NCBI RefSeq assembly: GCF_000312485.1
Contig: NZ_HE997653.1
Coordinates: forward strand, 1 to 64,000
Length of the DNA: 64,000 nt
Direction: 5' to 3'
DNA from: Yersinia massiliensis CCUG 53443
GTDB taxonomy: Bacteria > Pseudomonadota > Gammaproteobacteria > Enterobacterales > Enterobacteriaceae
Positions 6,601-52,630 of the stretch are shown here, piece by piece. Under the pieces are notes generated by a model, which did no database searches, had not been told where the DNA came from, and was given only the letters and a program-made list of their open reading frames with translations. The translations under genes and the position numbers were made by a program. Within the stretch, counting starts at the first letter, position 1. Every line of letters begins with the position of its first letter.

Positions 6601-8798
6601 TCAATCGCCGTTACCGTGACAGTGTCACGCGATTTTATCCCCTCTTGCTGAGTGAGCCACTGAAGCCGCTCCCCCACCGCCACGTCGATAGCGCGTGACT
6701 GATACAATCGCCATTCACTGTTAAGCTGCCCGACCGGCATCACGCGCTTGTTGCCGTCACTGTCGCGCAACACCAGTTTACGGGTCTGTTCGGCCACGGT
6801 GTCGAGGGTATAGCGCTCCAACTGACGTTTTTCGCCATCCCAGCGCTCCATCACCATCCCTTCGCGGTAACTGTCCATCTGCCGGCGACTTTTACTGTCC
6901 TGCCAGACCGGCACCAGACTTTGTACAGAGACACGCTCGGCGGTTAACTGGCCTTGCGTCTGCAAGGTGTCACGGATGGTCTGCGTCAGCAGTTGCTGTT
7001 CACGCGGGCCGGAAACCTGAGCGCTGACCGGGACGGAAGATGCCGTGAGCTCGGCATATTTTTCGGCCAAGGCGGCATAGCGCTGGCGTTTATCCCCCTG
7101 ACTGATAATGTCCACACTGACCGGCGTTTCATTAGCCGCTTTGAATCGTGCCACACCTGCGTCTTCCAGCGTCGCGAGGGCGTTACCGGTGCCTTTGCGC
7201 CCCTGCGTATCCATAAACAGAACCTGGACGCTGCTACGTTGCGCATGATCTAACAGGTGCAATGTCTCTTTCACCGACAGTTTCTCCGCACTGGCGACAA
7301 CCAATGTACTATTAGTGGGTAACTGAACACCTTCAGCCACGGCGCGACGGTCAATCACGCGCCCAGACAACGTACCGTCCTGCTCCAGAAAATCTTGCCC
7401 GGACTTGTCGGTCGCCAGTACAGTGACAATCCGCCCCTGCCCGCTGGCCATATTGATCGCGTCTATCACCCGCTCTCGCTGAACGGTCGCGCCACCACTG
7501 CCGCTGATAATCGCGAGATTTGGCATCACATCGGCAATCTTCCCCATCACGCCTTGTGGCCGCTGCTCCGGCGCACTAAACGCCACGGTACGGTTTTCAG
7601 ACTGGATACGCCCTGCCAGTTGCTGCACGCTCAGTTCATCGAGCAAATGGATAGCAGAGGTGAAAGTGCCTTTTTCACGGTCGAGGGGGATAAGTTGTTG
7701 CGACTCAATGGCCGCTTCAATGGCGTCTCTGGCCTGCTGAAAACTCCCAGCCTGAGCACGGATACCCCCCAGTGTCTTGCTCAACACCTCGGAGTAGGTA
7801 AATTGGGTTTTGTTATCACTCAGATGTGAGATGGCCTGATTGACCGCCAGTGTCATGTCGGCGGAAGGTGCAGCGGTCAGTAACGGATCGTTTTGGGTCT
7901 GTTGCTGTTGCCGTTCAACGGTTTGCTGTACAAATGTTTTGTAATCAAAACCGGCTTTGTCTGCACGTTCATGCCATTCAGTTAATAGTTCATCCTTATC
8001 TGGGGTACGCTTGACCTCGCGGGTATCAAGGGCTGCAACATCCCGTGAATGCCGTGAGGCATCTTGCCCGACAGCGTCCACGATCTCCTTGCGACGACTG
8101 GAAAACGGCTCGGTGGGTACACCGTCAATCTCCCACAATCCGTTTTTACCCGTCTCGTGCGTACTCATTCCTAACCGTTCAATGCCAGTTCGCAGTGCAT
8201 TATGGTAGATTTGACCTATCGCTATCTGAAGGGAGAAGACGGTTTCAATAAAACCGGATTTATCTACCGTGTCACTGGATAATGTCCGCCATCCCGCCTC
8301 CGTCTGTGTTGCATTCATGGTGATCACATGAGAATGGATATGGGGCTCCAGTGCCCGTGAGGTATCGTGGTTAAAAACGGCAAAAACACCATTTTCCGTT
8401 AACACGGTCTCACTGACTCCCTCCCGCATCAAACGTGAAGAAATCAATGATTCAATTTCCCCAACAGCCACCTCTACAGCACGATTGTGAGCCTCAATGA
8501 GCCGTGTATCCCCATAGAGCAGTGCCAGAACAGACACACTTTTCGGGGCAGATAACGTCAGGTCATAACCCGGACGGTGAACATTTTTACCGTTCTCCAT
8601 GCGCTCCAGACTGTCGCCGTTAGGCAAACGACCGGCTAACACTTCCGCAAACGCCACGTCCTCTACACGGCCTGATAAGCCTAAACTTTCCGCCCCTTCC
8701 CCTAACCAACGTGAATCCATCGACCCCAGGAAATAGTAGTTATCGGCATCGGTATAATATTGGGCGGCCCCTGCCGCTATCGGTGCAATACTCAGCAT
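3675..8798 (-). CDS. traI: TraI relaxase and helicase (MobF family)
   Basis: Nicks oriT, stays attached to the 5' end of the T-strand and unwinds it during transfer. It has 1707 aa, against 1756 in F. The N-terminal relaxase has two tyrosine pairs, Y14-Y15 and Y21-Y22, and a metal site HDTSR...HIHSH with His144, His155 and His157. The active helicase domain has Walker A GYAGVGKTT at about residues 974-982 and a LVDES Walker B. The vestigial helicase lies before it. The last 150 residues are Gln/Glu rich and probably form a coiled coil. The start overlaps the stop of traD (TAATG), and the stop overlaps the nuclease gene. A predicted substrate oriT is at 41503-41540. Confidence 0.97.
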   Translation of the reverse strand: MLSIAPIAAGAAQYYTDADNYYFLGSMDSRWLGEGAESLGLSGRVEDVAFAEVLAGRLPNGDSLERMENGKNVHRPGYDLTLSAPKSVSVLALLYGDTRLIEAHNRAVEVAVGEIESLISSRLMREGVSETVLTENGVFAVFNHDTSRALEPHIHSHVITMNATQTEAGWRTLSSDTVDKSGFIETVFSLQIAIGQIYHNALRTGIERLGMSTHETGKNGLWEIDGVPTEPFSSRRKEIVDAVGQDASRHSRDVAALDTREVKRTPDKDELLTEWHERADKAGFDYKTFVQQTVERQQQQTQNDPLLTAAPSADMTLAVNQAISHLSDNKTQFTYSEVLSKTLGGIRAQAGSFQQARDAIEAAIESQQLIPLDREKGTFTSAIHLLDELSVQQLAGRIQSENRTVAFSAPEQRPQGVMGKIADVMPNLAIISGSGGATVQRERVIDAINMASGQGRIVTVLATDKSGQDFLEQDGTLSGRVIDRRAVAEGVQLPTNSTLVVASAEKLSVKETLHLLDHAQRSSVQVLFMDTQGRKGTGNALATLEDAGVARFKAANETPVSVDIISQGDKRQRYAALAEKYAELTASSVPVSAQVSGPREQQLLTQTIRDTLQTQGQLTAERVSVQSLVPVWQDSKSRRQMDSYREGMVMERWDGEKRQLERYTLDTVAEQTRKLVLRDSDGNKRVMPVGQLNSEWRLYQSRAIDVAVGERLQWLTQQEGIKSRDTVTVTAIENDTLHVEHQGKARKIPLNDGIKATYGYVTTPGSQVQEKGVVLAAVAGRDTNATQLNTLARSGDSILLYTPLSENEAQVRLSGSPLYRPTLSQVNPDKQPLPAVLDEARDNLMSVAEKSVRQAINVTQGSDVTFSRLSVMAKALPMHPTMTPARVDAEINRQIQSGELLPVETPSGKAQQVYVTAASYAMEKQILHTILAGKNSVAPLMSEADPTLFAGLTAGQQAASRLMLESPDQFIGIQGYAGVGKTTQFKAVLGALNTLPDAQRPEVIGLAPTHRAVGEMASVGVKAQTIASFLMDTERRMQSGETLDFSRTLFLVDESSMVGNRDMSDTLTRIASGGGRAVLSGDTQQLLSVENGAPFSLMQQRSTLDVAIMKDIVRQSPELRPAVDAIIARQITPALHIIASVTPEQVPREAGVTPPTSSVEEYQQTSEDKADNGDLVIEAIVRDYTGRTDAARAQTLIVTQTNTDKRAVNRGIHDELKEQGVLGAATVSIEVFDREKTHVDALKSVAGMAAFNGGTVLINKEYYTLTVGNEGKQQGVVTLIDAEGQPRLLSAFESSVRDVAIFKSRDIELSVGDKVSFSQNDKERGRDANTRWTVSAIAENQDITLTHNGQRRVINPSTDPADRHLDYAYAGTAHKAQGASEPFVIVLAGVTGTRKYLASHSDAYVALSRMKSHVQVYTDDLTKWSEAVSRTGSRKTAHDVLHADDDRQTQTGNRLWSQARPLADNGLGRTLLRDSGLSEQGEARFISGSKKYPSPHVAWPAYDANGRQSGVWLDAVGLNDDGYLQGLAGKGRLLGSDSSSFVVLQKSQNGETQLATEVDTAMAIARAAPDSGVILQIGETPPAYRVEAATQGRLPVTSPANATTPPPADAPLSLKSPQEQAREQAEKAEIDRQRGMPPDADKSTLTPQTTEAEKQLAHEIQQEKQAGTQQQQQHTEQETHLERQHQQQQALQQLEREIVKEKTLGES

Positions 8799-11699: not shown

Positions 11700-11852
11700 C
11701 TACTTCCTTACTTCGTAGGCAAGTGTTGCCAGCATCGTCACATCCCCCTGTTGAACCCGGATTTCACAGAGTGAATCCCGCACCAACAGCGTGAACACTA
11801 GGATGGTGATACACACCATCCCCAGCCCATATAGGGTGAATTTACTAAACAT
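11700..11852 (-). CDS. hok: Hok/Gef family toxin (type I TA)
   Basis: A 50-aa membrane toxin. Residues fit the Hok pattern: a single membrane helix (LGMVCITILVFTLLVRD), then SLCEIR, then a tail ending in AYEVRK. The start at 11852 has GGAGG 6 nt upstream. The reading frame stays open upstream to 12023, consistent with a mok-type in-frame leader. The 5' region folds into GCCTCG...CGAGGC with an inner GTTAAA/TTTAAC pair (about 11914-11946), typical of hok mRNAs. In F the equivalent flm genes are in the leading region. Here the module sits inside the tra region between a traS-like gene and traD. It would kill plasmid-free segregants. Confidence 0.85.
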   Translation of the reverse strand: MFSKFTLYGLGMVCITILVFTLLVRDSLCEIRVQQGDVTMLATLAYEVRK

Positions 11853-11854
11853 AC

Positions 11855-11950
11855 TTGCCTCCGAGTGAGAAAGAGGCTTACAATTGAACTGTTGAGATTC
11901 ATCGTCGGCCTCGTGGGTTAAAGGATTTAACTTGCGAGGCTTTCGTCTTT
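11855..11950 (+). ncRNA. probable sok-like antisense RNA region
   Basis: Hok toxins are controlled by a short unstable antisense RNA made from the opposite strand over the mok start and the SD region. This interval covers the hok leader and its conserved hairpin, so a Sok RNA is expected here. I could not fix its promoter or ends by eye. The call rests on family knowledge and on the leader structure. Confidence 0.4.
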
Positions 11951-12061
11951 CTGTCCCTTGCATCATGCTTGAGACAAAAAGCCTCAAGCACCGCGCCGCC
12001 ATTCTAACGATCTTTTGATGCAAATCCTACGCTTACCGACTATTCAATCGGGAATGTACAA

Positions 12062-40504: not shown

Positions 40505-40882
40505 TTATTCGCTTTTGGGGAAGGCTCTATTCACGATATTCGCGACATCATCTTTCATCTTCTCCACCTGTGATGAATAACTGAAACGGGAATCATCTTT
40601 AATTTCCTGTATGCTAAAGAACATGGTGAGTATTTCCTGAATGGCAACCCGACTTTTCACACACTCTTCCATCAGCATACGATTAAATATCTGTTCCGGA
40701 CTTTCACCTGCCGATTTCTTTTTCATGTTCTGCGTCACACGCAATCCTATCTCAAGGAGTTCGGCTCCCATACTGGACATATTAACCTCAGAAGAAGAAG
40801 CCCCTTCTGCTTTTCGTTCATCGACCAATTGCCTTATTCCATCCAGCGTCTTTTGTTTCATATAAATATTTTGTCTTGGCAC
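40505..40882 (-). CDS. traM: TraM relaxosome protein
   Basis: A 125-aa protein that binds oriT next to nic and contacts the C-terminal tail of TraD. The start is GTG at 40882 (GGGAG upstream), giving PRQNIYMKQKTLDGIRQLVDE. This aligns with F TraM (ARVNLYISNDAYEKINAIIE). Next come LLEIGLRV and a C-terminal end VNRAFPKSE like F (MERFFPKND). A longer upstream frame is not used. In F, traM is directly followed by traJ. Here 5.5 kb of other genes lie in between. Confidence 0.9.
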   Translation of the reverse strand: MPRQNIYMKQKTLDGIRQLVDERKAEGASSSEVNMSSMGAELLEIGLRVTQNMKKKSAGESPEQIFNRMLMEECVKSRVAIQEILTMFFSIQEIKDDSRFSYSSQVEKMKDDVANIVNRAFPKSE

Positions 40883-41540
40883 GATATATCTCTCCCATCG
40901 AATAGCCCATAGCGCACAATCCAGCACCGTAGCACATTTCAGCGATAAAAACCCCACACAATGCAGCAATTTACCCCCACACCATGCAGCCACATCAACG
41001 AATTGATTAAAATACCAGCAAATCACCCACACACCAATAAGCACCGAATTTAGATTTATCAGCACCAATTAGCCCGCTATCAAGCCATAAAGGTGTGCAA
41101 TGATATTTTATTCAGCACTGTAAAGGCACAGTTAAAGCACTCATTAAGCAACTTAAAGACACTTACTCGCACACCAAAGGTCAAATCACTCAATCTATAG
41201 CGCCGTATGAAGCAACGATTAGCACACAAACAGCCACACCCTCCCCCCCGCAAATCTGAAATCAGCCTCACTGAAACGAGCATTTAACCGCCAAATGCAG
41301 CACCAATCCACACACTTAAAGCAGCCACAAACCAGCTACATAATTTATAACTGACTGAATAATAGTCATTACACACCTAATACGCCTTATCACCATCCCT
41401 TAAAGCCACATTACAGCGCTAATTGTGGCTTTGAATTGTCAGTTCTCGTTAACATACATCAACACAACTTACGTTAACTCACTCATTTTAAAGGCAAATC
41501 AGGCAAAATGAAATTTTGCGTGGTGTGTGAGAAGTTGACT
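40883..41540. other. oriT: origin of transfer (oriT)
   Basis: The relaxase site is F-like. An inverted repeat GCAAAAT/ATTTTGC (41503-41509, 41513-41519) is followed on the plus strand by GCGTGGTGTGT. It aligns base for base with the F sequence GCGTGGGGTGT that precedes nic. Nic is thus predicted between 41528 and 41529. The T-strand is the plus strand and transfer runs rightward, so the tra genes enter last, which fits the map. AGCAC occurs eight times between 40923 and 41303, possible TraM or TraY sites. AAAGCCACA...TGTGGCTTT (41402-41432) is a further inverted repeat. No gene is seen. Confidence 0.88.
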
Positions 41541-41653
41541 TTAGAAGAGACTATTTACTCCCCGTTCTTTGGTTTGGATTTTGCAATATTCGGGGTATCC
41601 CTTTTCTGCCAAAAATGGCAGTATTCTATTATGCCTATTTTGAATGGATTCAT

Positions 41654-42103
41654 ATGATGAAGGGGTTTTGTCTACTGTTTCTTTTGCTTTCCTCGATGTC
41701 GAGTTTGGCTTCGGACTGTTTCGATAAAGCGGGACGGGATTATCATATTGATCCGGACTTATTACGGGCGATTGCATTCAGGGAGTCATCACACAGGGAC
41801 ACGGCATTAAATGTCAAATCACAGCAGGAATATGCGGTGGGGAGAATGCAGATACACTCTCAGAATTTTTCTCATCTGGCTGATTTTGGTATTACCCCAC
41901 AACACCTTTACACCGACGGTTGTCTTAATATCTATACAGGCGCGTATTATCTTGCGATTGCATTTAAACGCTGGGGCGTGAATTGGGATGCGGTGGGTGC
42001 CTATAATGCCGGATTCAAAAAAGACAACAAGCAAGATATGAAGCGACGTCAATATGCGCAGGAAGTTCATCAAATTTACATGCGCTACAAAAACAGCAAA
42101 TAA
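41654..42103 (+). CDS. gene-19/orf169-type lytic transglycosylase
   Basis: A 149-aa periplasmic enzyme (VirB1/P19 family) that opens peptidoglycan for the transfer apparatus. It has signal peptide MMKGFCLLFLLLSSMSSLAS. It has the catalytic Glu in AIAFRESSHR, then GRMQIHS and YNAGF, the usual order for SLT domains. The start at 41654 is chosen for the signal peptide. It lies right next to oriT on the leading side, as in F and R1, and is transcribed away from oriT. Confidence 0.92.
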   Translation: MMKGFCLLFLLLSSMSSLASDCFDKAGRDYHIDPDLLRAIAFRESSHRDTALNVKSQQEYAVGRMQIHSQNFSHLADFGITPQHLYTDGCLNIYTGAYYLAIAFKRWGVNWDAVGAYNAGFKKDNKQDMKRRQYAQEVHQIYMRYKNSK

Positions 42104-42365: not shown

Positions 42366-42403
42366 ACCGGCGCTCTCGGCAAAAAAATCACCCTGATAAA
42401 ATA

Positions 42404-42438
42404 GCCTCTCTAGAAATACATAGAGAGGCCGTTTTTTT
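42404..42438 (+). terminator. intrinsic terminator behind the transglycosylase segment
   Basis: A 9-bp stem GCCTCTCTA/TAGAGAGGC with an 8-nt loop is followed by CG and eight T on the plus strand. It reaches the stop codon of the converging gene at 42438, and the reverse direction also carries TATTTTAT, so it may act both ways. Confidence 0.8.
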
Positions 42439-43307
42439 TAAACTGAACTTAACTCGGCACGCATATTATTAATTTCACCTTGCACGCCGTGATGGTGCCA
42501 AAACTCCCCATGACCGACTGACCATAATTCACCATTTTTATATCTTTCCAGTGTAATGTCCGTATTGAATCGACTTTTAAACTTCTCAATAAATAATGCA
42601 ATGGCTTTCTCCGTTAAGGCGTCACTAAATTCTCTGTCGGTAAAGACATAACGCACACCGCCATACACTTTATTAAAAGGTGACTCGTGATATTCATAAA
42701 TATCCTCCATGCCGTTGAAATACCCTTCTTTGTATTTACCAACAATACTTTTTACGGCGTCATCTGTTGGGCCATCCGTCCAACTCACATCAACACGATC
42801 ATAATGATTTTTGCGCACTGAGAACTTGACGCCAGAAAAAGCCGCTTTCAATTCTTTGCGAATATTACTCGCCACCTGAACCGCGCCATTATTTCCTTGT
42901 GTTAAGGTTGCATATTCGGGGGCGGTTTTCATATTTTCCACTGCCAGATTAAATGCCGCCTGTTGGGCTTCTTCATTTTCTCTTTTTAACAGTTCTTCCG
43001 CTAAAGCATGACGATAAATACGCACGACATCCGTTTCCGTTTTAACGTCATCATGAATTTTCCATTGTACGCCACGCAAAATACATTCGGGCAATTTCTT
43101 GGTTAATGAACCTGATTCGAACGCGATATCAAATTCAGCGTTGCCACCGCTGACCCCTACCCCACCGCCAAATAAATGAATACTGTCGGGCTTCTGCTCC
43201 CCATGAATGCCATAAACCACACCACGCCCCCGCCCATAAAGATTCGTGCTGATAACTTGCCCGACAACGATAATATTTTTACTGGCTTCATTTTTAGTCA
43301 TATTCAT
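42438..43307 (-). CDS. leading-region protein with LPD29-type domain
   Basis: A 289-aa protein. The segment from about residue 145 (VASNIRKELKAAFSGVKFSVRKNHYDRVDVSWTDGP...GKYKEGYFNGMEDIYEY) matches the large polyvalent protein-associated domain 29, found in plasmid and phage proteins and of unclear function. The N-terminal part has Gly-rich repeats and is not recognised. It is the gene nearest to oriT on the minus strand and lies just downstream of structured repeat copy 1. Early entry and this promoter type make it a candidate for a defence-countering role. Confidence 0.75.
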   Translation of the reverse strand: MNMTKNEASKNIIVVGQVISTNLYGRGRGVVYGIHGEQKPDSIHLFGGGVGVSGGNAEFDIAFESGSLTKKLPECILRGVQWKIHDDVKTETDVVRIYRHALAEELLKRENEEAQQAAFNLAVENMKTAPEYATLTQGNNGAVQVASNIRKELKAAFSGVKFSVRKNHYDRVDVSWTDGPTDDAVKSIVGKYKEGYFNGMEDIYEYHESPFNKVYGGVRYVFTDREFSDALTEKAIALFIEKFKSRFNTDITLERYKNGELWSVGHGEFWHHHGVQGEINNMRAELSSV

Positions 43308-43387
43308 GATTAGTTTCCATGTGAGTTTTTGCCTGCGCTCTCTTATTCAGGCCAATATTTTCAATATTATTGATGGGTGCCTTTCCC

Positions 43388-43850
43388 CTATCTTTTGGGA
43401 TGTTTTGGCGTGGCGGTTTTGACGTTGACGTTCTGTGTGTTCATGCTGCTTCTCCCCTCTCTGTGGTTAATCCTATCTCTCGGTCAGTTCAGTCGCGGCA
43501 AAGGGCGAAGTAGCGACAGCGATGCGCATAAAACAAGGGGCCGCTGGCGGCGTTTACCCTCCCTTGTTTTATGAACGGCGACGGTGCTACGAACAGCCCT
43601 CCGCGAGAGAGCTGGCCGAGAGATAACGCACCCGATAGTGAACAGGATGGGCACATCCGGCGCGCCGATACGGCGGGACGTCATTAGCGCCGGTGGCTTT
43701 TTACCGGCAGTGAAAGCGGCGATGGCCATGGGCCATCTGCAAGCGCAGGGTGTTGCGTCATGGGATGGAAACCCGCAGGGCAGAGACAGCATCGCTGGCT
43801 CTGTGCGTAGCATGACAGCCCGCCCGGACGCCCAAAAACACCAGACAAAA
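43388..43850 (-). promoter_or_regulatory. structured leading-region repeat, copy 1 (Frpo/ssi-like)
   Basis: First of three related segments (others at about 45950-46410 and 50316-50780). It contains a 13-bp perfect stem CATAAAACAAGGG (43527-43539) with CCCTTGTTTTATG (43561-43573), a GCCGGT/ACCGGC hairpin (43689-43708) and GATGGCC-ATG-GGCCATC (43721-43737). At its gene-facing end is an 18-codon ORF (43444-43388) starting MNTQNVNVKTA, like two real genes behind copies 2 and 3. It stops early and is a remnant. The segment lies upstream of the LPD29 gene. Confidence 0.7.
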
Positions 43851-43967
43851 CTACCGTAACCCAACAGAAGGATGTGCCGCAGCGGGCATAGTCAGATAAG
43901 GATGGAAAGAATGAGAAAGAAGCAGAGTCAGCAAGGAACAGAGAAAAGTCCCTTGTCACGCTGGACG

Positions 43968-43996
43968 TAAAACCGCCGTGGCGAAGCCACAGCGGC
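43968..43996 (-). terminator. intrinsic terminator after the methylase gene
   Basis: A stem of CCGC and GTGGC with GCCAC and GCGG, loop GAA, is followed on the minus strand by TTTTAC. It lies about 70 bp after the methylase stop. A close copy of this stem lies at 46549-46581. Confidence 0.6.
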
Positions 43997-44067
43997 GTTT
44001 AGTCCCTGCCCTTTTGCGCGGGTCGGTAGGCTGCACATTTCCGGCAGGGTTGCCCCTGCCAGTCTCC

Positions 44068-44856
44068 TTAGTGCCGTGATGGAACAAATCGCATGTACCA
44101 GAATGGGGTCAGCATGGTGCACTGGATAACTTGCGTTATTGTGTTACCCACCCGCACACAAGCTGAAATGCCCAATAGGGAAAGCTGGATGTAACACATA
44201 CGCGCCGCCACGGGATCAATGTCAGTACAAGACACTAACAGCTGTTTTTGCGGGTTAAAGCCCTTTTCCAGCATATACTTAGCCGCCGCAATCACCATGC
44301 CCCCCGCGCCACAGGTACATTCATCCATCGTGATATAGGGCGTATGTTCCAATGCTGCCAGCCGATCGCCAATCGTCAGGGCCGCCATCAGATCAGACAT
44401 ATTTGACGGGGTAAAGAATTGCCCCATATGGTCACTCCCTAGTTCTAATTCCATAAAGATACTGCCCAAAAAGTCGCACATACAGGCTTCCAATCCCATG
44501 ACAATCTGCGCGTGCAACTGTGCAAATCTGGTCAGATCTTCAGGCTTATAACGGGCAATCACCGCGAAATATTCTTCCTCCAGTTCGGGCGATTTCAAGC
44601 AAGCATTTTCAAGCGCAATCGCCGACACGGTAACAAAATCGCGGAAAACCTCGTAACGGTGATGATATCGCGCGGTTTCTTTGAAAATGTTCACAAACTC
44701 GCGCCGGTAATGGTCTACCGCTGGATACGATTGCGGAACAATGCGCGGCGGGACGTCTTTTGGCACATTCACAGGGACGACAACCGCGCTTTTGACTGTT
44801 TCTATATGCGGTGTTTCTGGCGCACTGAATAGATCATCAAATGACAATTGAGACAC
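44068..44856 (-). CDS. N-6 DNA methylase-like protein of the leading region
   Basis: A 262-aa protein related to HsdM-type methyltransferases. It has GQFFTPSNMSDLMA and the SAM-binding motif DECTCGAGGMVIAAA (motif I), then SCTDIDPVAARMCYIQ. The catalytic motif IV (NPPY/F) is not visible. The protein ends soon after CVRVGNTI. Similar short forms are common in F-like leading regions, so this seems to be their normal form rather than a truncation. It may protect incoming DNA or bind SAM for another purpose. Confidence 0.75.
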   Translation of the reverse strand: MSQLSFDDLFSAPETPHIETVKSAVVVPVNVPKDVPPRIVPQSYPAVDHYRREFVNIFKETARYHHRYEVFRDFVTVSAIALENACLKSPELEEEYFAVIARYKPEDLTRFAQLHAQIVMGLEACMCDFLGSIFMELELGSDHMGQFFTPSNMSDLMAALTIGDRLAALEHTPYITMDECTCGAGGMVIAAAKYMLEKGFNPQKQLLVSCTDIDPVAARMCYIQLSLLGISACVRVGNTITQVIQCTMLTPFWYMRFVPSRH

Positions 44857-44956
44857 GGTTATGCGTCCCCTTTATCACAGGTTTTGAGTGGTTTTTGGTG
44901 CATGATCAACTCCGATTTGGGTTGAATACCGCCCCATAAAGGGGCGGCACGATTAA

Positions 44957-45199
44957 TCAGGCATAGGCCCGTTTCAGTTCCAGCGTTCGGAGGACTTGTC
45001 CTAACTCACTGATACGCATAGCCGGAATCCTGACCGGCTGTTTTTTTAGCTGACACTTGGCAATGTGTCGGCCCCGCGCTTTACAGGTTTCGGTGATATC
45101 GTTTATCGCTATCGCCGGACGGTTGAGCCGCCGTTGTTTTTTCGGTGCCTGCTTTACAAAATCGGCGGCGGGTGTCATGATGCTCACTTCAATTTTCAT
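44957..45199 (-). CDS. small basic leading-region protein
   Basis: An 80-aa, strongly basic protein (QAPKKQRRLNRPAIAIN) with no recognised domain. It lies 100 bp upstream of the methylase gene, probably in the same transcript. A basic small protein entering early could bind nucleic acid or inhibit a defence enzyme. This is inference from position only. Confidence 0.5.
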   Translation of the reverse strand: MKIEVSIMTPAADFVKQAPKKQRRLNRPAIAINDITETCKARGRHIAKCQLKKQPVRIPAMRISELGQVLRTLELKRAYA

Positions 45200-45264
45200 G
45201 GTTTCTCTCCATGTGTGGATTGAGCGCCGGTTAAACTTTCTCAGGGCTAAACCGGCATAAAAGG

Positions 45265-45287
45265 GCAGACGAAAGTCTGCTTTTTTT
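45265..45287. terminator. bidirectional-type intrinsic terminator
   Basis: GCAGAC-GAAA-GTCTGC followed by seven T on the plus strand, and by CCTTTTAT on the minus strand. It directly follows the stop of the gene at 45286-45633. Confidence 0.65.
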
Positions 45288-45633
45288 ATTTCTGCGTCTT
45301 GCTTTCTTGGCTTTGCACCTCCTTTTCCAGTCGTTGAACAATCGCGGTATGATTCAGTGTGACCACATCACGAAACTTGAAATAGCACTCGCCCACTTTG
45401 GCGTAAATGTACGTGACGTTACCGCAATACATTTCAGCCAGTTTGAACGATTCGCTGTGTGCGTCTCCTTGCCAGTCGAGCGGGTACAGTGTGCCGATGG
45501 CGTCCATGAACTCCGTCAATGTGATCGCTTCCGGTTCGGTTTTGGCTGACACTTCCCGCGACTGCCAATAAGCCGCCTCCGCGCGGGCATCCCAGCTAAA
45601 GCGGTCAGTCGTGTCGTTTGTTGTCTGGTACAT
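45286..45633 (-). CDS. hypothetical leading-region protein
   Basis: A 115-aa protein with no signal or membrane segment. It has a mixed fold pattern with FMDAIGTLYPLDW and a charged C-terminal helix. No family recognised. It lies about 55 bp behind the gene driven by structured repeat copy 2, so it would be among the first genes read in the recipient. Confidence 0.55.
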   Translation of the reverse strand: MYQTTNDTTDRFSWDARAEAAYWQSREVSAKTEPEAITLTEFMDAIGTLYPLDWQGDAHSESFKLAEMYCGNVTYIYAKVGECYFKFRDVVTLNHTAIVQRLEKEVQSQESKTQK

Positions 45634-45687
45634 CGTGTTTCTCCTTGGTGGGGTTAACGCCAGCCAACGGCTGGCGACTGCATATCG

Positions 45688-46011
45688 CTAAATGTCTATC
45701 CCTAACGCTTTAACTTGTTTGATGAATTGCTTGTAATGGCTTGCAGATACAAGAGTGATATTTTTGTGTCTGCCGTTCGATACCCCTAATTTGCTCAATT
45801 CGTAGGCATATTCATTTTTCATTTTCTCCGGATAGGATTGACGAAATGCCTGTAACGCTTTCAGTGAATCAAATCCGTAGCATTCAAAATCGTCATAATC
45901 GGTGCCTTTCTCCCCTTCTGCCATGTTAATGCTGTACAGATTTGGCCCTTCCCCATATCTTTCGGTAGATTCAAGAGCGGCGGTTTTGACGTTGACTTTG
46001 TGTGTGTTCAT
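45688..46011 (-). CDS. hypothetical early leading-region protein (MNTxxVNVKTA type)
   Basis: A 107-aa protein started at 46011, where AGGAGA lies upstream. Its first residues MNTHKVNVKTA are shared with the 78-aa protein at 50141-50377 and with an 18-codon remnant at 43388-43444, because all three begin inside copies of the same repeat. The rest is different: acidic at first, then rich in Lys and Tyr. No domain recognised. A candidate anti-defence gene. Confidence 0.6.
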   Translation of the reverse strand: MNTHKVNVKTAALESTERYGEGPNLYSINMAEGEKGTDYDDFECYGFDSLKALQAFRQSYPEKMKNEYAYELSKLGVSNGRHKNITLVSASHYKQFIKQVKALGIDI

Positions 46012-46410
46012 CCTAGTTTTCTCCTGTTGGTGGTTAACATCTCTCGGTGAGTTCTTTCGCGGCAAAGGGCGAAGGAGCAACGGCAATAGGGGAAATACAA
46101 GGGCGCCGCTCGCGGCGTGCCATTTACCCTTGTATTTATCCTGTTGTTGGTGCTACAAACAGCCCTCCGCGAGAGAGCTGACCGCGAGATAACGCCCCGA
46201 TAGTGAACAGGATGGACACACCCGGCACGCCGATACGGCGGGACGTCATTAGCGCCAGTGGCTTCATCACTGGCAGTGAAAGCGGCGATGGCCATGGGCC
46301 ATCTGCAAGCTGGTGTTGCCCTTGCGTCATGGGATGGAAACCCGAAGGGCAGAGACAGCATCGCTGGCTCTGTGCGCAGCATGACAGCCCGCCCGGACGC
46401 CCAAAACAAC
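45950..46410 (-). promoter_or_regulatory. structured leading-region repeat, copy 2 (Frpo/ssi-like)
   Basis: Second copy of the repeat. Stem AAATACAAGGG (46093-46103) with CCCTTGTATTT (46127-46137), and inner CGCCGC/GCGGCG. The next hairpin is GCCAGTG/CACTGGC (46254-46274). Compared with copy 1 both arms have changed together, which keeps the pairing. GATGGCC-ATG-GGCCATC is unchanged. It lies upstream of, and runs into, the gene at 45688-46011. Confidence 0.72.
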
Positions 46411-46548
46411 GTTCAATCAAAGCGTGATGATGGAAAACTGACTAAAACAATGAGAAAAGAGACAAGAACGCCGAGGACAGGCAACAGACTTCACCGGCGA
46501 AGTCTTGATACCTTCTTTTGGGATTGAGTGATGACAGCATTGAATAAG

Positions 46549-46581
46549 TAAAACGGCCGCCGTGGCGAAGCCACAGCAGCC
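46549..46581 (-). terminator. intrinsic terminator behind the psi gene block
   Basis: GTGGC-GAA-GCCAC stem with further GGC-GC/GC-GCC pairs, followed on the minus strand by CGTTTTAC. It lies just behind the stop at 46589 and resembles the terminator at 43968-43996. Confidence 0.6.
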
Positions 46582-46588
46582 TTGAAAC

Positions 46589-46921
46589 TTATTGGCCGTT
46601 GAAGTATTCCGGTCTGGCGGCTAACTCACGGGCTATCAGCTCATCAGCCAAGAGTGGGGCAGCGTTCATGATCCTGCGCCGCATATTACGCTGTCGGGCT
46701 TGTGCCTTACGCTCTGGCGTCCACCGTTTTATTGGGCGAATATCAAGAAAATCAATACACACCGCATATCCGCTACTGGGAACAAACAAGTCCATGATAC
46801 TGGCGGGCGTTGGATCACCCGCAGGCACCACCTCAGACATCAATATCTTCCCTCTGGGGCTGGGAAGATGGGGCAAACACCATCGTAGGGAATAGCGCCA
46901 TTCGCCCAATTTACCGACCAT
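46589..46921 (-). CDS. hypothetical protein behind psiA
   Basis: A 110-aa protein with GGGAGG 5 nt before its ATG, overlapping the psiA stop by 11 bases. The middle is basic (IKRWTPERKAQARQRNMRRR) and the end helical. No known domain. It is the last gene of the ParB-like, psiB, psiA block. Confidence 0.6.
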   Translation of the reverse strand: MVGKLGEWRYSLRWCLPHLPSPRGKILMSEVVPAGDPTPASIMDLFVPSSGYAVCIDFLDIRPIKRWTPERKAQARQRNMRRRIMNAAPLLADELIARELAARPEYFNGQ

Positions 46922-47639
46922 GCGGCCTCCCTAATTTATTGGGTCGTATCAACGAATCCAGCCACAGCTCAACCGTGCTCCTTCCCGCCAGTTCGGCGCG
47001 GATATCGGCCAAAAGCCAGCCTAAATCCGTCGAACCATACCATGTTGCCCTGTCCATATTCACAAACCGCAGCCCCCGTGCCAGCACCATGTCAAACAAG
47101 TCATCATCATTGATGCCTCGTTTTGCTTGCCGCTCGTACCACGCCGATAACTCGCTGAGCGTGATAAATGCTAAGTCAATTTCAGCTTGCGCGACTTGTG
47201 TTTGGTAACGCCGACGTTTTTTCTGGCGCTCGCGAGTGATGTTATTGGCCTTGCGTGCCGCTTTGACGTCCCACTGGCGATATTGACGTTCACGCAAGCG
47301 ATAACGCACTTCAGGGAAAAACAGATATCCATCACTGGTTAAAAGGGGCAGTGAACACATTTCTCCTCGACTCCCAATAAGGGTATCCAGTGCCCTGATA
47401 AATTGCGCCTTTGGCGGCCCTCCCCGATTTTTGGGGTCATAATTACTGGCGGCCCTGCGCACATCCGAGGCCAATATTTTCCCTTTAGTCCCACAGAGAT
47501 AACGAAAGAGTTCGCGTGCGTAGGGATATTGGCCTAATCGCCTGCCCCGCTGTCTCTTTTCTTCTACCGCCATGATGGCTTGTATGGCGGCACGTTGGTA
47601 TGAGTTGACGGGAACCAGTGACATATTGGTTGGGATCAT
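46911..47639 (-). CDS. psiA: PsiA-like leading-region protein
   Basis: A 242-aa, highly basic protein. The start LVPVNSYQRAAIQAI, the stretch GEMCSLPLL and the Arg-rich middle (RERQKKRRR) fit PsiA of F (LIPLSAEQQAAMQAV, GEVCGLPLP). PsiA accompanies the SOS inhibitor PsiB and its own role is unclear. The start overlaps the end of psiB by four bases, as in F. Confidence 0.8.
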   Translation of the reverse strand: MIPTNMSLVPVNSYQRAAIQAIMAVEEKRQRGRRLGQYPYARELFRYLCGTKGKILASDVRRAASNYDPKNRGGPPKAQFIRALDTLIGSRGEMCSLPLLTSDGYLFFPEVRYRLRERQYRQWDVKAARKANNITRERQKKRRRYQTQVAQAEIDLAFITLSELSAWYERQAKRGINDDDLFDMVLARGLRFVNMDRATWYGSTDLGWLLADIRAELAGRSTVELWLDSLIRPNKLGRPHGR

Positions 47640-48082
47640 ACGACATGCCCTCCCAGCCGTAACGCCACCGCCAATTCATTTGGCTGCGTATATCCGGCAT
47701 GAATGTATTCAGCCAGCGTATCCAGTGCCGTTCTGATAGCATCAGGTTCAAAACAATCACTGCTGTAGAACCATGCCACTGACTCACCGCCGTTAAACCA
47801 CAGCCGCCCATACCAGTAAGGAGATCCATGGCTTGGACTGACTAACTCAATCGGGGTTGTCGGGGCCATCTTGCTATTCAGGCGTAAATGAACCGGATAT
47901 TCCCCGCCCCATTCCTGCCTAAACTCGCAATCCACACCCCAGTATTCCGGCAATGATAAACAGGCGATGATGGCACTGGACAACGTTTGACGAAAACCCT
48001 CGCCCCGTTCGCGGTACTGCTCAAAATCGGTCGAGGTAAAGGCTTGCAGCTTCAATAATGTGAATTTTTCTTCTTGGGTCAT
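47636..48082 (-). CDS. psiB: PsiB SOS inhibition protein
   Basis: A 148-aa protein. PsiB binds RecA and prevents SOS induction while single-stranded DNA enters the recipient. The match to F PsiB lies in EYWGVDCEFRQEWGGEYPVHLR (F: [21 protein letters not shown]) and in the C-terminal part ending LRLGGHVV (F: LMAEGGQV). The start at 48082 is preferred, and the ribosome-binding site is weak. It follows the ParB-like gene. Confidence 0.85.
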   Translation of the reverse strand: MTQEEKFTLLKLQAFTSTDFEQYRERGEGFRQTLSSAIIACLSLPEYWGVDCEFRQEWGGEYPVHLRLNSKMAPTTPIELVSPSHGSPYWYGRLWFNGGESVAWFYSSDCFEPDAIRTALDTLAEYIHAGYTQPNELAVALRLGGHVV

Positions 48083-48116
48083 GATGTTATGCCGCCCTTT
48101 CGGGCGACATCTCCGA

Positions 48117-50081
48117 TTAGGCAGCGGCTGAATCATCAGTGGAAGAGAGCGAAACGGTTTCATCCAGCGGGAGCAAACATTCCGGCACCCAGCGAGTTTG
48201 TGCTATTTCAACCGCCGTTAAATGGGCTGCATCACCCTTTTTCATTTTGAGCACAGAGGCGGCTTGCGGCGCTTTCCCAATGGCGGTTAATGCTTGGCTC
48301 ATTTGCTCTTTGCTGATACGCCCAAAATAGTTTTCTTGGGTCGGTTGCCACCAGTCACGCAGTTCGAAAGCTAACGCGTTTTCGACCGATACCAGCTCAT
48401 TGCCGATTTTGCCGCCCGAATTCGCATGACACCCTACCGCATCCAGTGACTGACCGACACAATAGGCCAGCAGTGCGATCACTTCGGCTTGATCCCATGT
48501 CAGCAACCACGAAAAATCCAGTTGCCAGTCTTCGGGTAAACGGGCCTCCCATTGGTTATGCAGATTCTCCAGTACGCGATGGGCTTCCCCTTCTTCCGAT
48601 GCGGGAGCATTGCTCAATAACGTGTGCCGTTTAATTTCCAGACGGGTTTTTAGAACGGAACTGGAATACTCCGCAAAGAACACTTTGAGGGCCATTGAGT
48701 GAGTATGTAGTGCTAATGCCACCGCTGGATTTTGTACCAGTGCCGCCATGACCGCTAATGTCCGTTCGGAGGACAAGCTGGAGATCAATGCTGACGACAA
48801 CCCTTTTTCTTTTTGGGTCGCTGGGATAGGCGTAATATTGTCTTGCTGTTGCTCACTTGATACTGCTGTTTCGCGTAGAATAACCCCACGCTGGAAGGTC
48901 AAATCGCCACTATCAAACGATACCACTACCCCGCTTTGTGTTTTCTGCTCTGCCGTCCATCCACGAATTGAAGCAGCAGATTCAACGTCTTCAATCTGTT
49001 GCTGAATGTCATTTTCATCATCGTAGGTTTCAGTGGCTTCCAGCGCCGCCGTCAAGGTGTCAATGTGGGATTGCTCCGATTCGGTATAGACTGGCGTGGG
49101 GTCTGACACTAACTTATATTGACGCGCATCCTCGCCCCAATGACCGATAGGGTCCATTTGGTGAGCGCACCATGACCAGCCTTCACATTCCTGAATAGCC
49201 ACCGCGATAGCGTCCAACTTTTCAAGTGTCAGACGATCAAGTAAGGCGCGGTCAATCCAGCCCTCGTCTTCATCACTGAATAAGTCGGTACGGACAACAG
49301 CCCCCGCAGCCGCCAGTTCGTCACTCCCGACAAAAGCAAACTTCTTGTTATTTTTGATGCTGACTTCCTGCTCGGTGATCAAGTTTCGCAGTTGGTAATT
49401 CTGTGGTGATCTACCGAATACTTGTTGTGCCTGTTCCCATACACCCACCTGTCGTTCCTGACTGTCTTCCAGTGCCAGAATTTGACACTTTTCGAGGGTG
49501 ATTTCGTCTTTTGCCAGTGCCTCTAACAAAGCAGGGGCCAGATGGGCGAGTTTCAGACCACGTTGTACATGACGTGAGCTATAGCCCAGCAAGTCACCAA
49601 TTTGAGCCGGTGTTTTCCCCTCGTCTGCCAGTGTCCTAAAGCCGACAATCTGCTCGGCGGGGTGCATCTCTTTACGTTCACCGTTTTCTGTCATGGAGGC
49701 GGCAACCGCCAGTTCTTGCGGTACACGTTTAACGGCAACCGGTGTATCAGGCTGATATTCCCCACGTTCAACCAACATATTGAGCGCAGCCAAACGACGG
49801 CCCCCTGCGGCAACGCCAATCAGACCGCTATCAAGATCGTGAGCCACCAAGTTTTGCAACAACCCCATAGACACAATGGTGTTAGCAAGGCTGGTGATGC
49901 TCTCAACAGAATAGGGAATAAGGCGCACATTCAGTGGCGATTTGACCAGACGGGACAACGGAACATACTCTATGGCCGTCTGTTCCAGCACCTGAGCCAA
50001 TGCCTGTGCGTCATGTGCGGCCGCTGGCACTTTACGGGTGGATTTCTTGACTGATTTTGCTTTAGACTCTGTAACTGACAT
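48117..50081 (-). CDS. leading-region ParB/Spo0J-family protein
   Basis: A 654-aa protein with an N-terminal ParB domain. Motifs are YVPLSRLVKSPLNVR, then GVAAGGRRLAAL, EMHPAEQIVGFRTLADEG, and a helix-turn-helix AQIGDLLGYSSRHVQRGLKLA. The long C-terminal part resembles other leading-region ParB-like proteins and has no known fold. It has no ParA partner beside it, so it is not the partition protein. The true par genes are at 53058-54094. AGAGG lies upstream of the start at 50081. Confidence 0.85.
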   Translation of the reverse strand: MSVTESKAKSVKKSTRKVPAAAHDAQALAQVLEQTAIEYVPLSRLVKSPLNVRLIPYSVESITSLANTIVSMGLLQNLVAHDLDSGLIGVAAGGRRLAALNMLVERGEYQPDTPVAVKRVPQELAVAASMTENGERKEMHPAEQIVGFRTLADEGKTPAQIGDLLGYSSRHVQRGLKLAHLAPALLEALAKDEITLEKCQILALEDSQERQVGVWEQAQQVFGRSPQNYQLRNLITEQEVSIKNNKKFAFVGSDELAAAGAVVRTDLFSDEDEGWIDRALLDRLTLEKLDAIAVAIQECEGWSWCAHQMDPIGHWGEDARQYKLVSDPTPVYTESEQSHIDTLTAALEATETYDDENDIQQQIEDVESAASIRGWTAEQKTQSGVVVSFDSGDLTFQRGVILRETAVSSEQQQDNITPIPATQKEKGLSSALISSLSSERTLAVMAALVQNPAVALALHTHSMALKVFFAEYSSSVLKTRLEIKRHTLLSNAPASEEGEAHRVLENLHNQWEARLPEDWQLDFSWLLTWDQAEVIALLAYCVGQSLDAVGCHANSGGKIGNELVSVENALAFELRDWWQPTQENYFGRISKEQMSQALTAIGKAPQAASVLKMKKGDAAHLTAVEIAQTRWVPECLLPLDETVSLSSTDDSAAA

Positions 50082-50140
50082 GGTTAATACCTCTGCGGTT
50101 TTGATTTGTGTCTGCCGGACGTTCTCGCGTCCGGCACCTA

Positions 50141-50377
50141 TTACTGCTTTTTGAAACTGCTGAAAAAACCCGATAGCCAATAATGGATAACATCCTTAAA
50201 ACCAAACGGCTCTCCATAATGGATGTGTGCTTCTTCTGCCATCGCGACCTCTCCAATCGCATCCTCTAACGCCTGACGTAATACGCCCCGTGTTTTAGCG
50301 TGATTGTTTTGCCCTTCCCCATATCTTTTGGGATGTTTTGGCGTGGCGGTTTTGACGTTGACGTTCTGTGTGTTCAT
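50141..50377 (-). CDS. small leading-region protein (MNTxxVNVKTA type)
   Basis: A 78-aa protein. It begins MNTQNVNVKTATPKHPKR like the remnant in repeat copy 1, then continues with HAKTRGVLRQALEDAIGEVAMAEE and an aromatic C-terminus (YWLSGFFSSFKKQ). No family recognised. It is the first gene behind structured repeat copy 3 and upstream of the ParB-like gene. Confidence 0.6.
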   Translation of the reverse strand: MNTQNVNVKTATPKHPKRYGEGQNNHAKTRGVLRQALEDAIGEVAMAEEAHIHYGEPFGFKDVIHYWLSGFFSSFKKQ

Positions 50378-50780
50378 GCTGCTTCTCCCCTCTCAGTGCT
50401 TAATCCTATCTCTCGGTCAGTTCAGTCGCGGCAAAGGGCGAGGTAGCAACGACGGCAGGGGAAATACAAGGGCGACGCTTGCGGCGTGCCATTTACCCTT
50501 GTATTTATCCTGGTGTGGGTGCTACAAGCAGCCCTCCGCGAAAGAGCTTACCGGGGGATAGCGGACTGAGTGCCAGACGAGCATGAACACACCCGACACA
50601 GCGGAACGGTGTGGCGTCATTAGCGCCGGTGGCTTTTTACCGGCAGTAAAAGCGGCGATGGCCATGGGCCATCTGCAAGCCGGTGTTGCCCTTGCGTCAT
50701 GGGATGGAAACCCGCAGGGCAGAGACAGCATCGCTGGCTCTGTGCGCAGCATGACAAGCCCGCCCGGACGGCCAAATATC
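50316..50780 (-). promoter_or_regulatory. structured leading-region repeat, copy 3 (Frpo/ssi-like)
   Basis: Third copy. Stem AAATACAAGGG (50462-50472) with CCCTTGTATTT (50496-50506), GCCGGT/ACCGGC hairpin, then GATGGCC-ATG-GGCCATC. It then continues with the same block as the other copies (GATGGAAACCCGCAGGGC, AGCATCGCTGGCTCTGTG). It precedes the 78-aa gene, the ParB-like gene, psiB and psiA. Confidence 0.72.
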
Positions 50781-50914: not shown

Positions 50915-50930
50915 CTGTATATAATTACAG
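50915..50930. promoter_or_regulatory. LexA (SOS) box of umuDC
   Basis: CTG-TATATAATTA-CAG, in the frame AACTG...CAGTT, is a near-perfect LexA operator with the 10-bp spacer. It lies 16 bp before the umuD start, so the operon is expected to be SOS induced. Confidence 0.9.
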
Positions 50931-50946
50931 TTAAATTAGGTTGGCT

Positions 50947-51366
50947 ATGAAAGTAGAAATCATTGCAGCGCAAACAGGATCTCACCTTCAGATCCCACTT
51001 TTTGGCGAAATGTGCCTGGCTGGGTATCCCTCCCCAGCCTCCGACTACATAGAAAAAACATTAGATTTAAATGACTTATGCATTCGTCATCCCAGCGCCA
51101 CCTACTTTGTACGGGCTGAAGGTGAATCCATGACGGAAGCGGGCATTCTTTCTGGGGATCTGCTGGTTGTAGATAAAGCGGTGAAACCGGCACATGGCGA
51201 TATTGTGATCGCCGCCATCGATGGCGAATTCACGGTTAAGAGGCTGAGTCTTCATCCCCGGCTCAGCCTTCAACCCATGAATCCCGCTTACAGCCCAATC
51301 TATGTTGACCCCGATGATCTGGACATTTTTGGCGTTGTTATGCACGCCATTCATACCTTTAAGTGA
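50947..51366 (+). CDS. umuD: UmuD-type SOS mutagenesis protein
   Basis: A 139-aa S24-family protein that cleaves itself after RecA activation and then forms polymerase V with UmuC. The cleavage site is Ala25-Gly26 in CLAGYPSP (Cys-Gly in E. coli). The catalytic residues are Ser61 (GESM) and Lys98 (TVKRL). The ATG at 50947 gives the E. coli length. A TTG two codons upstream is less likely. The stop lies 7 bp before umuC. Confidence 0.95.
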
Positions 51367-51373
51367 GGTGCGT

Positions 51374-52630
51374 ATGTTCCTGCTCTGCGACATTAATTCT
51401 ATGTACCCCAGTGTGGAACAACTCTTCAGGCCTGACCTTAAGGGGAAACCGGTTATCTGTCTGAGTAATAATGACGGGAATTGCGTCTTGGCCAATAAAG
51501 AAGCCAAGCAACTGGGGATTAAACGAGGAGCGCCCTACTTTCAGATAAAAGCGCTGATAGAACGTCACCAGGTCACTTGTTTTAGCTCAAATTATTCGCT
51601 GTACGGAGATCTCAGTGCCAGAACCATGGTTATTTTGGAATCGATGGCCGCATCGATGATGGTTTATAGCATCGATGAAGCATTTTTGAGGATTGATGGT
51701 ATCGAACATTGTGAACCGCTGGCCAGTTACGGGAAGCGCGTGCGAGATACCGTATTTCAACAAACCGGCTTATTGTCCGGGATCGGCATTGGCCAGACTC
51801 TGACTCTGGCCAAACTCGCCAACCACGGTGCGAAAAAATGGCCTGCTACCGGCGGTGTTGTTGACTTGTCAGACAGAGAGAGGCAACGCAAGCTGATGGC
51901 GCTTTTACTGGTCGAGGACGTCTGGGGCATTGGTCGCCAGCTGAGTATCAAACTCAAGACGATGGGCATAGAAACGGCGTTGCAGCTGGCTGACGCCAAC
52001 CTTCAGCTGATAAAAAAAACATTGGGTGTTGTCGTTGAGCGAACCGTGAGGGAGCTTAATGGCACACCCTGTATTTCCATCGATGCACTCCCCGCTAAAC
52101 AGCAAATCATATGCAGCCGGAGTTTTGGGGAACGTATCACAACCTTACAGGATATGCGCCAGGCGGTGTGCCAGTACGCGGAGCGAGCGGCGGAAAAACT
52201 GCGGCAGGAACGGCAATATTGCCGTTATATCAGTGTTTTTATTCGTACCAGTCCGTATTCGAATGAACCGTTTTACAGCAACAATGCCAATCATCGATTA
52301 ATGCTGGCCACCCAGGACACACGAGATATTGTGGCAGCCTCGATGAGCGCACTGGAGCAAATTTGGCGTGATGGGTATCGATACCAAAAAGCAGGGATAA
52401 TCCTGAATGATTTTTGTAGCCGCCCTGGTCAGATAGATATGTTTGACGAAACACCGCCAAGAGCCAACAGTGAGCAGTTGATGAAAGTTATCGACCGCAT
52501 AAACCGAGAAGGGATAGGAAAGGTGTGGTTTGCGGGGCAAGGAATAGATAAAGGTTGGAAGATGAAACGGGAAATGCTTTCTCCTGCATACACGACTAAT
52601 TGGAATGAAATTCCGACGGCTAAGATTTAA
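51374..52630 (+). CDS. umuC: UmuC-type Y-family DNA polymerase V subunit
   Basis: Translesion polymerase of 418 aa. Metal-binding residues are visible: Asp6 in LLCDINSMYPSVEQ and Asp101-Glu102 in VYSIDEAF. The little-finger domain and the C-terminal UmuC extension with a beta-clamp-like QIDMFD motif are present. GAGGTG overlaps the umuD stop, so the two are coupled. Plasmid copies of this pair (impAB, mucAB) protect against DNA damage. Confidence 0.95.
   Translation: MFLLCDINSMYPSVEQLFRPDLKGKPVICLSNNDGNCVLANKEAKQLGIKRGAPYFQIKALIERHQVTCFSSNYSLYGDLSARTMVILESMAASMMVYSIDEAFLRIDGIEHCEPLASYGKRVRDTVFQQTGLLSGIGIGQTLTLAKLANHGAKKWPATGGVVDLSDRERQRKLMALLLVEDVWGIGRQLSIKLKTMGIETALQLADANLQLIKKTLGVVVERTVRELNGTPCISIDALPAKQQIICSRSFGERITTLQDMRQAVCQYAERAAEKLRQERQYCRYISVFIRTSPYSNEPFYSNNANHRLMLATQDTRDIVAASMSALEQIWRDGYRYQKAGIILNDFCSRPGQIDMFDETPPRANSEQLMKVIDRINREGIGKVWFAGQGIDKGWKMKREMLSPAYTTNWNEIPTAKI

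Follow-up and report, generated by a model that had tools for sequence, protein, structure and literature searches.

Three Frpo-like repeat units in the leading region of a Yersinia massiliensis plasmid, predicted single-strand promoters with a shared translation start

Introduction

The closest described relatives of the elements considered here are Frpo of plasmid F and ssi of plasmid ColIb-P9, both of which have been studied experimentally. F has two Frpo copies, 89% identical across 559 bp, which lie directly upstream of ssb and of ygeA. Here we analyse 64,000 nucleotides from Yersinia massiliensis CCUG 53443 (contig NZ_HE997653.1, positions 1 to 64,000, called the window throughout), which contain three repeat units homologous to these elements. 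The units are very probably Frpo/ssi-type promoters of an F-like conjugative plasmid, which would act on single-stranded DNA (ssDNA) to give leftward early bursts of expression, and each would also serve as a start cassette for translation.

Frpo is widespread in leading regions, and passages of PMC11541004 count 13,089 Frpo-homologous promoters among 6,006 elements and mention Frpo-like candidates in a Serratia marcescens island as well, while a passage of PMC12826799 places Frpo elements in 74% of PsiB plasmids. Judged by sequence, the three units described here are, as promoters, new members of this known and surveyed kind. According to excerpts of PMC9849209, F conjugation is lowered by loss of Frpo1 or ygeA, and not by loss of Frpo2 or ssb, with a value of 3.9% after loss of ygeA compared with 92.6% for the wild type; the same excerpts state that reporters of the F leading genes show no rise once Frpo1 or Frpo2 has been deleted.

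Results

Three repeat units homologous to Frpo

Direct-repeat analysis of the window identified three units of about 460 bp, all on one strand, which are genuine repeats:

43380..43836, + strand (T-strand orientation): unit copy 1, from repeat families D1-D9, upstream of a gene with LPD29/LPD30 domains
45941..46405, + strand: unit copy 2, from repeats and genome search, upstream of a YgeA homologue and three further genes
50307..50776, + strand: unit copy 3, from repeats and genome search, upstream of an open reading frame (ORF) of 78 residues and of genes for ParB-like, PsiB and PsiA proteins

Copies 1 and 3 are 90% identical across 160 nt, and copies 2 and 3 are 88% identical across 156 nt and 97% across a further 118 nt. 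An initial annotation of this DNA had described three repeats that share sequence and hairpins, and the repeat analysis, the genome search and the model matches given below all bear this out. No fourth unit was found at E <= 0.001 in the whole 5.05-Mb genome, where the search returned the three known places only. The 501-bp stretch that bears copy 3 is identical to part of the 124-kb Y. massiliensis plasmid NZ_CP054046.1, whose gene ends, where compared, are all shifted by 30,299 relative to the window. On the unit strand of this plasmid a covariance model has three matches, all in the leading region, and it gives weaker matches on the opposite strand at the identical three places, as expected because the units are hairpins.

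All three copies match both F copies in a short-word blastn search of a three-locus database (E 2e-17 to 3e-4). Two covariance models, whose E-values are rough, extend the comparison. Model R1 has 26 rows (alignment A2, made of 24 of the 25 aligned copies, with L032 left out, and two F rows) and contains no ColIb-P9 sequence; model R2 has 21 rows (alignment A3, with L025, L032, L047 and L050 left out) and contains neither F nor ColIb-P9. With R1 all three unseen ColIb-P9 copies are found on the expected strand, with E-values of 8.6e-17, 2.2e-16 and 6.4e-11. Applied to parts of F, ColIb-P9 and the window, R2 recovers both F copies, Frpo1 at 1.5e-7 and Frpo2 at 0.004, along with two of the ColIb-P9 copies (6e-5 and 0.002), at the expected place and strand. 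The units are thus homologous to F Frpo by blastn and by covariance models, and to ColIb-P9 ssi by the latter.

The wider family is large. A blastn search with copy 3 matches 1,762 of 72,556 plasmid records at E 1e-5, and in 561 of these at least 80% of the query is covered. R1 finds copies in 53 of 392 genomes of the family; of its places, five weak ones (G620:C1, G620:C12:104343, G107:C53, G647:C55 and G104:C2) were left out of the further comparisons. In a scan of the window with Rfam at gathering thresholds the units match no family; elsewhere in the window the scan finds a sok antitoxin RNA (11841-11993, - strand) and a CopA-like antisense RNA (2545-2633, + strand). Two hypothetical proteins of the public record, at 43647-43859 (+) and 46136-46330 (-), overlap copies 1 and 2 and are probably not genes.

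Folding and covariation of the units

Each unit is composed of a long hairpin and a second part:

43473..43626, + strand: long putative promoter hairpin of copy 1 (model match; fold of 43460-43850, z -5.9; covariation)
46037..46192, + strand: long putative promoter hairpin of copy 2 (model match; fold of 46025-46410, z -6.4)
50406..50561, + strand: long putative promoter hairpin of copy 3 (model match; fold of 50393-50780, z -5.3)
43627..43836, + strand: second part of copy 1, which forms several small hairpins (blastn to F, 82% over 90 nt, E 2e-17; covariation)
46193..46405, + strand: second part of copy 2 (blastn to F; covariation)
50562..50776, + strand: second part of copy 3 (blastn to F; covariation)

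When the + strand is folded as ssDNA, each unit forms one long imperfect hairpin of about 155 nt plus several short ones, and in none of the three copies was the fold equalled by any of 100 shuffles. The - strand, folded for copy 3, is likewise equalled by 0 of 100 shuffles, but with a z of -3.0 compared with -5.3 for the + strand. The large stem is formed by CATAAAACAAGGG/CCCTTGTTTTATG in copy 1 and by AAATACAAGGG/CCCTTGTATTT in copies 2 and 3, while the second hairpin is GCCGGT/ACCGGC in copies 1 and 3 and GCCAGTG/CACTGGC in copy 2.

These are the stems named in the initial annotation, all present as it stated, together with the claim that both arms change together. From three copies this covariation would be anecdotal; from 11 sequences it is solid. 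Alignment A1 of the long hairpin holds the short-tip sequences, 11 of the 25 aligned copies (eight relatives and the three window copies, with L032 left out), and has 94.1% of its cells paired, compared with 87.7% after shuffling, and 33 doubly changed cells, compared with 11.2. Neither the pairing nor the double changes were equalled in 500 shuffles, and pairing falls to 36-49% when the partners are slid by one to three columns. The second part was compared in alignment A4, 12 sequences chosen by eye (three from the window, two from F and seven relatives), where 93.8% of cells are paired and 37 are doubly changed; shuffles give 9.1 doubly changed cells, and none of 500 equals the observed value. 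Of the five measures used, that of further pair types stays near the shuffles in both alignments, being equalled by 35 and 118 of 500. The compensatory changes in these larger alignments indicate that both arms change together beyond the three copies.

The hairpin tips of several relatives (L008, L016-L019 and L022) have an extra A/T-rich stem, AAAAACTTTTTGC...GCAAAAAGTTTTTG, which reads AAAATTTTTT in F and does not occur in the three window copies. This stem is possibly an UP element.

Leading region and gene blocks

The gene for TraI (3675-8798), which matches MobF relaxases, and the other tra genes run leftward, with traM at 40505-41068 followed by a transglycosylase gene at 41615-42103 (+), in the same order as in F. 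Because of this order a candidate oriT can be placed between 41068 and 41615, by synteny with F and not by sequence. The leading region should then lie right of oriT, with its genes leftward, and the first-entering strand should be the + strand. All three units are located in this region, upstream of leading genes in the direction that would use the T-strand as template, and the geometry of F is alike, since the Frpo hairpins found by the model are on the strand opposite the leading genes. PLSDB types NZ_CP054046.1 as relaxase MOBC and mating apparatus MPF_T, yet TraI matches MobF and the tra genes, as annotated, are of F type.

The genes downstream of the units form three blocks:

42438..43307, - strand: block 1, LPD29/LPD30-domain protein (Pfam)
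45688..46011, - strand: block 2, first gene, leader and YgeA homologue of 107 residues (alignment to F YgeA)
45286-45633 and 44957-45193, - strand: block 2, two small proteins of no assigned family (Pfam, PHROGs, NZ_CP054046.1 annotation)
44068-44856, - strand: block 2, N-6 DNA methylase-like protein (Pfam, PHROGs, NZ_CP054046.1 annotation)
50141..50377, - strand: block 3, first gene, leader and 78-residue protein (leader comparison)
48117-50081, - strand: block 3, ParB-like protein (Pfam; 47% identity to the F ParB-like protein)
47636-48082, - strand: block 3, PsiB (Pfam; 27% identity to F PsiB)
46911-47639, - strand: block 3, PsiA (Pfam; gene ends per NZ_CP054046.1)
46589-46921, - strand: block 3, small ORF of no assigned family (gene ends per NZ_CP054046.1)
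42403..42430, - strand: terminator-like hairpin after block 1 (scan; RNA fold z -5.5)
43973..43999, - strand: terminator-like hairpin after block 2, with a short T tail (direct repeat D13; RNA fold z -6.8)
46555..46581, - strand: terminator-like hairpin after block 3 (scan; RNA fold z -5.5)

The YgeA homologue shares 35% identity with F YgeA across its full length, with a pairwise E of 1e-18, and PHROGs and NCBIfam give no family match for the genes that open blocks 2 and 3. Two gene orders of F are present, Frpo1-ygeA in block 2 and Frpo-...-ParB-like-psiB-psiA in block 3. Three times a unit is followed by genes that share one strand and then by a terminator-like hairpin, for which the terminator case rests on position and fold. 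Given the position, strand, gene order and block-end hairpins, the earlier proposal that each unit starts a gene block fits the region.

Just right of copy 3 lie divergent umuDC-like genes (50941-52630), preceded at 50915-50930 by a box, CTGTATATAATTACAG, which we take to resemble the LexA box. Early block 3 and these SOS genes have one common intergenic region.

Proposed promoter elements in the long hairpin

Possible promoter elements are present in the right arm of each long hairpin:

43564..43593, + strand: copy 1, proposed -35 TTGTTT, 18-nt spacer, extended -10 TGC-TACGAA (weak consensus)
46130..46159, + strand: copy 2, proposed -35 TTGTAT, 18-nt spacer, extended -10 TGC-TACAAA
50499..50528, + strand: copy 3, proposed -35 TTGTAT, 18-nt spacer, extended -10 TGC-TACAAG

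The right arm would be the non-template strand and the left arm the template, if the polymerase exits at the hairpin base toward the genes. In the three copies the -35 part is perfectly paired, and mismatches face the later half of the -10 and a few bases beyond it. TGnTA is found in the right half of 56 of 91 hairpins, compared with 21% in letter shuffles. The TG of the extended -10 is missing from the complement of the left arm in 9 of 11 rows, which suits a promoter better in the hairpin than in a duplex. A -10 common to F and the window units was sought and not found, the F and ColIb-P9 rows having no TGnTA.

The units might instead be ordinary double-stranded regulatory or recombination repeats, with folding as a by-product. 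Inverted repeats do occur in double-stranded DNA, where the right-arm elements would face rightward. In a simple scan, however, the - strand shows no sigma-70 consensus close to any unit; the scan gives 6 sites for the whole region, one of them inside the methylase-like gene, compared with 8.7 in shuffles. The long-range pairing with compensatory changes and the homology to the experimentally studied F and ColIb-P9 elements also argue against it, and we consider this explanation highly improbable.

A shared N-terminal leader

At the left end of each unit the - strand carries a ribosome site, an ATG and about 18-20 leader codons. The initial annotation, whose reading of the units as promoters starting gene blocks is largely supported, missed that each unit runs on through the ribosome site and ATG into codons, and it did not mention the published large-scale survey of Frpo elements. 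Copy 1 has the leader by itself:

43388..43444, - strand: copy 1 leader, stand-alone 18-codon ORF, MNTQNVNVKTATPKHPKR, stop (translation comparison)

The leader reads MNTQNVNVKTATPKHPKR(YGEG) in copy 3 and MNTHKVNVKTAALESTERYGEG in copy 2, and in relatives it stands ahead of differing proteins. Its occurrence was counted in 101 copies, obtained from 131 places with 103 distinct sequences, two of which had too little downstream sequence and were dropped; the 101 copies are related and not independent events. The 15-mer AACGTCAAAACCGCC, with up to three mismatches, is present in 88 of the 101, at 36-82 nt past the hairpin, whereas its reverse complement is found in 0 of 101, and the 15-mer itself in 4 of 99 when the opposite flank of the hairpin is searched and in 10 of 2020 shuffles. 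An in-frame ATG lies within 12 codons in 67 of the 88, and 61 of these 67 leaders continue into ORFs that add 35 residues or more, the other six being short or stand-alone. Without the leader, the 61 ORFs fall into 18 groups (of 14, 13, 9, 4 and 4 members, four of 2 and nine of 1) with no blastp link at E 1e-3, although remote kinship among them is conceivable.

DNA identity between groups reaches 0.93 within the 15-mer, drops to 0.6-0.8 for the 20 nt that follow and is at 0.25-0.28, the chance level, from about 48 nt on; as these copies, and those counted below as having no ATG, were matched by the 15-mer, its constancy is overstated by selection. When the leader by itself is the query and E is allowed to reach 1, 374 plasmid records are retrieved, some of which could be chance, and 311 of them are typed as conjugative.

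We considered whether the leader is kept as a peptide or as a nucleotide element. The comparison used 31 distinct leaders from 41 rows picked by the pattern V-K/R-T-A, so that the constancy of V, T and A follows from the selection and only third bases are informative. The leaders show 12 synonymous and 17 non-synonymous single-base variants, out of 31 and 91 possible, 28 multi-base variants having been set aside. The third bases of GTC and ACC are constant in 31 of 31 leaders, although silent changes were open, and outside the V-K/R-T-A selection the neighbouring codon AAA is often replaced by AAC (K to N). With invariant third bases and a variable neighbouring residue, the constraint seems to be at least partly at the nucleotide level. 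A pure protein signal does not account for the leader, the synonymous excess being mild and the third bases fixed; nor does a pure DNA element, since the leader frame is open 35 codons on in 61 of 67 cases, compared with 10 of 67 in each of the other frames, which argues for translation. The leader is also not readily the -35 of a rightward promoter, as TTGACG is present on the + strand but, by eye, no -10-like hexamer follows at 16-18 nt.

Two explanations for the leader are to be weighed, of which recent exchange without function ranks slightly ahead of a DNA/RNA function used as codons. In the first, which has nearly an even chance, the leader is a passive remnant: homologous recombination would spread the units, and codons from the start of an ancestral first gene, perhaps ygeA, would hitchhike with them. 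The leader DNA is nearly identical among many copies, as after recent exchange, and copy 1 keeps it as a stand-alone ORF. F has the leader DNA, AACGTCAAAACCGC, ahead of ssb and ygeA without an ATG in that frame, and there it is crossed by a different frame whose ATG lies upstream. The identity profile given above, high at the 15-mer and falling to chance beyond it, speaks against a passive remnant, as do the 21 copies that match the 15-mer with no in-frame ATG, both with the overstatement by selection just described. The second explanation, which is plausible and somewhat short of even, is that the leader is an element with a DNA or RNA function of its own, kept translated, or ATG-less as in F, within a plug-in expression cassette. 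Its role might be, for example, translation start in a naive cell, hand-over of an RNA primer, or a joint for the capture of early genes.

In F (L005 10572-11183) and three relatives (L109, L116 and L125) the ATG-less leader frame is open into ssb. An older leader-SSB fusion was considered for F and rejected: a stop intervenes in eight other copies that precede ssb, so the open frame in these four may be chance.

Discussion

The homology, the conserved pairing, the position in the leading region and the strand support the reading of the three units as predicted Frpo/ssi-type promoters, which the initial annotation had proposed. We infer polymerase binding, the assignment of the -35 and -10, the timing and the shut-off. 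As the + strand enters the recipient, each unit would fold, and RNA polymerase would take the hairpin for a duplex, with the right arm as non-template and the left arm as template. The -10 region, already partly mispaired, would open, and transcription would proceed leftward off the hairpin base into the early-gene block, up to the terminator. Copying of the strand would then remove the hairpins, ending the early burst. Each unit would also be a ready-made start cassette, with ribosome site, ATG and about 18-20 leader codons, so that genes joined to it in frame would gain promoter, start and common N-terminus together.

The units could also be mainly ssi sites that prime complementary-strand synthesis, with gene expression secondary. 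Going by the title of the 1997 report of Masai and Arai, F Frpo is said to be both a promoter and a source of primers. The small hairpins of the second part, conserved and common to F, are not explained by a promoter function and would find a place here. A priming site, however, needs neither repetition before each block nor in-frame joining to genes, and the order of unit, ribosome site, ATG, block and terminator-like hairpin, found three times, fits gene expression. Priming as the main role is therefore unlikely, and the two roles are not mutually exclusive.

A number of observations weigh against the promoter and start-cassette reading. Model R2 misses the third ColIb-P9 copy, which is recovered only by R1, where F rows are included. 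Of the 56 TGnTA hairpins, 46 have a best -35 that agrees with TTGACA at only three of six positions and eight have one that agrees at fewer, and in the F and ColIb-P9 rows the right half contains no TGnTA. The left-arm TG is kept in two rows, those of window copies 2 and 3, copy 3 having TGCTAC on both arms; the argument for the hairpin over the duplex therefore fails for these two, and a weak leftward promoter in duplex DNA is conceivable for them. The terminator scan gives 16 sites, a small margin over the 10.2 (sd 3.3) of shuffles, and the hairpin that follows block 2 is not among them. A Pfam search of NZ_CP054046.1 gives no SSB gene, unlike in F, for which the host SSB could substitute. 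Lastly, 21 of the 101 leader-sample copies, both F copies included, have the 15-mer with no in-frame ATG, and 13, ColIb-P9's three included, have no 15-mer. We still consider the preferred reading, of ssDNA promoters joined to a start cassette, very probable.

The start-cassette architecture with a common N-terminal leader appears to be the new part. The open literature that we searched contains no description of a shared leader at Frpo units and no match to NVKTA-type strings. If the cassette does carry a functional element, very different early proteins would bear one N-terminus. The leader raises the questions by what route early genes are captured and for what reason proteins with no visible similarity keep a translated nucleotide element in common. 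It also offers a simple tag by which early genes can be sought: any ORF that follows such a hairpin and begins like M[NH]T[QH]NV(NV)[KN]TA makes a good candidate early gene of a leading region, whatever the rest of its sequence. For an F-like plasmid of an environmental Yersinia species, the analysis gives three candidate early-expression units in a block layout comparable to that of F, with a YgeA homologue identified behind one of them (copy 2).

The closest known system remains F. Frpo1 and Frpo2 have, like the window units, homologous sequence and a long hairpin with smaller ones, repeated ahead of early genes, and the strand and the place relative to the transfer genes are alike. Copy 2 is the counterpart of Frpo1-ygeA and copy 3 that of the F psiB/psiA block, and F YgeA starts with MSTRNIHVNTA, a diverged version of the leader residues. 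The two systems differ in the hairpin tip and in the -35/-10 letters, and whereas F has ssb behind a Frpo copy, copy 3 of the window is not followed by ssb. The ssi elements of ColIb-P9 likewise number three in the leading region and are more distant, with no leader 15-mer within three mismatches. The Frpo and Frpo-like promoters of Samuel et al. 2024 (PMC11541004), in passages of which a shared start codon or N-terminal leader goes unmentioned, very likely form one wide class with the units described here.

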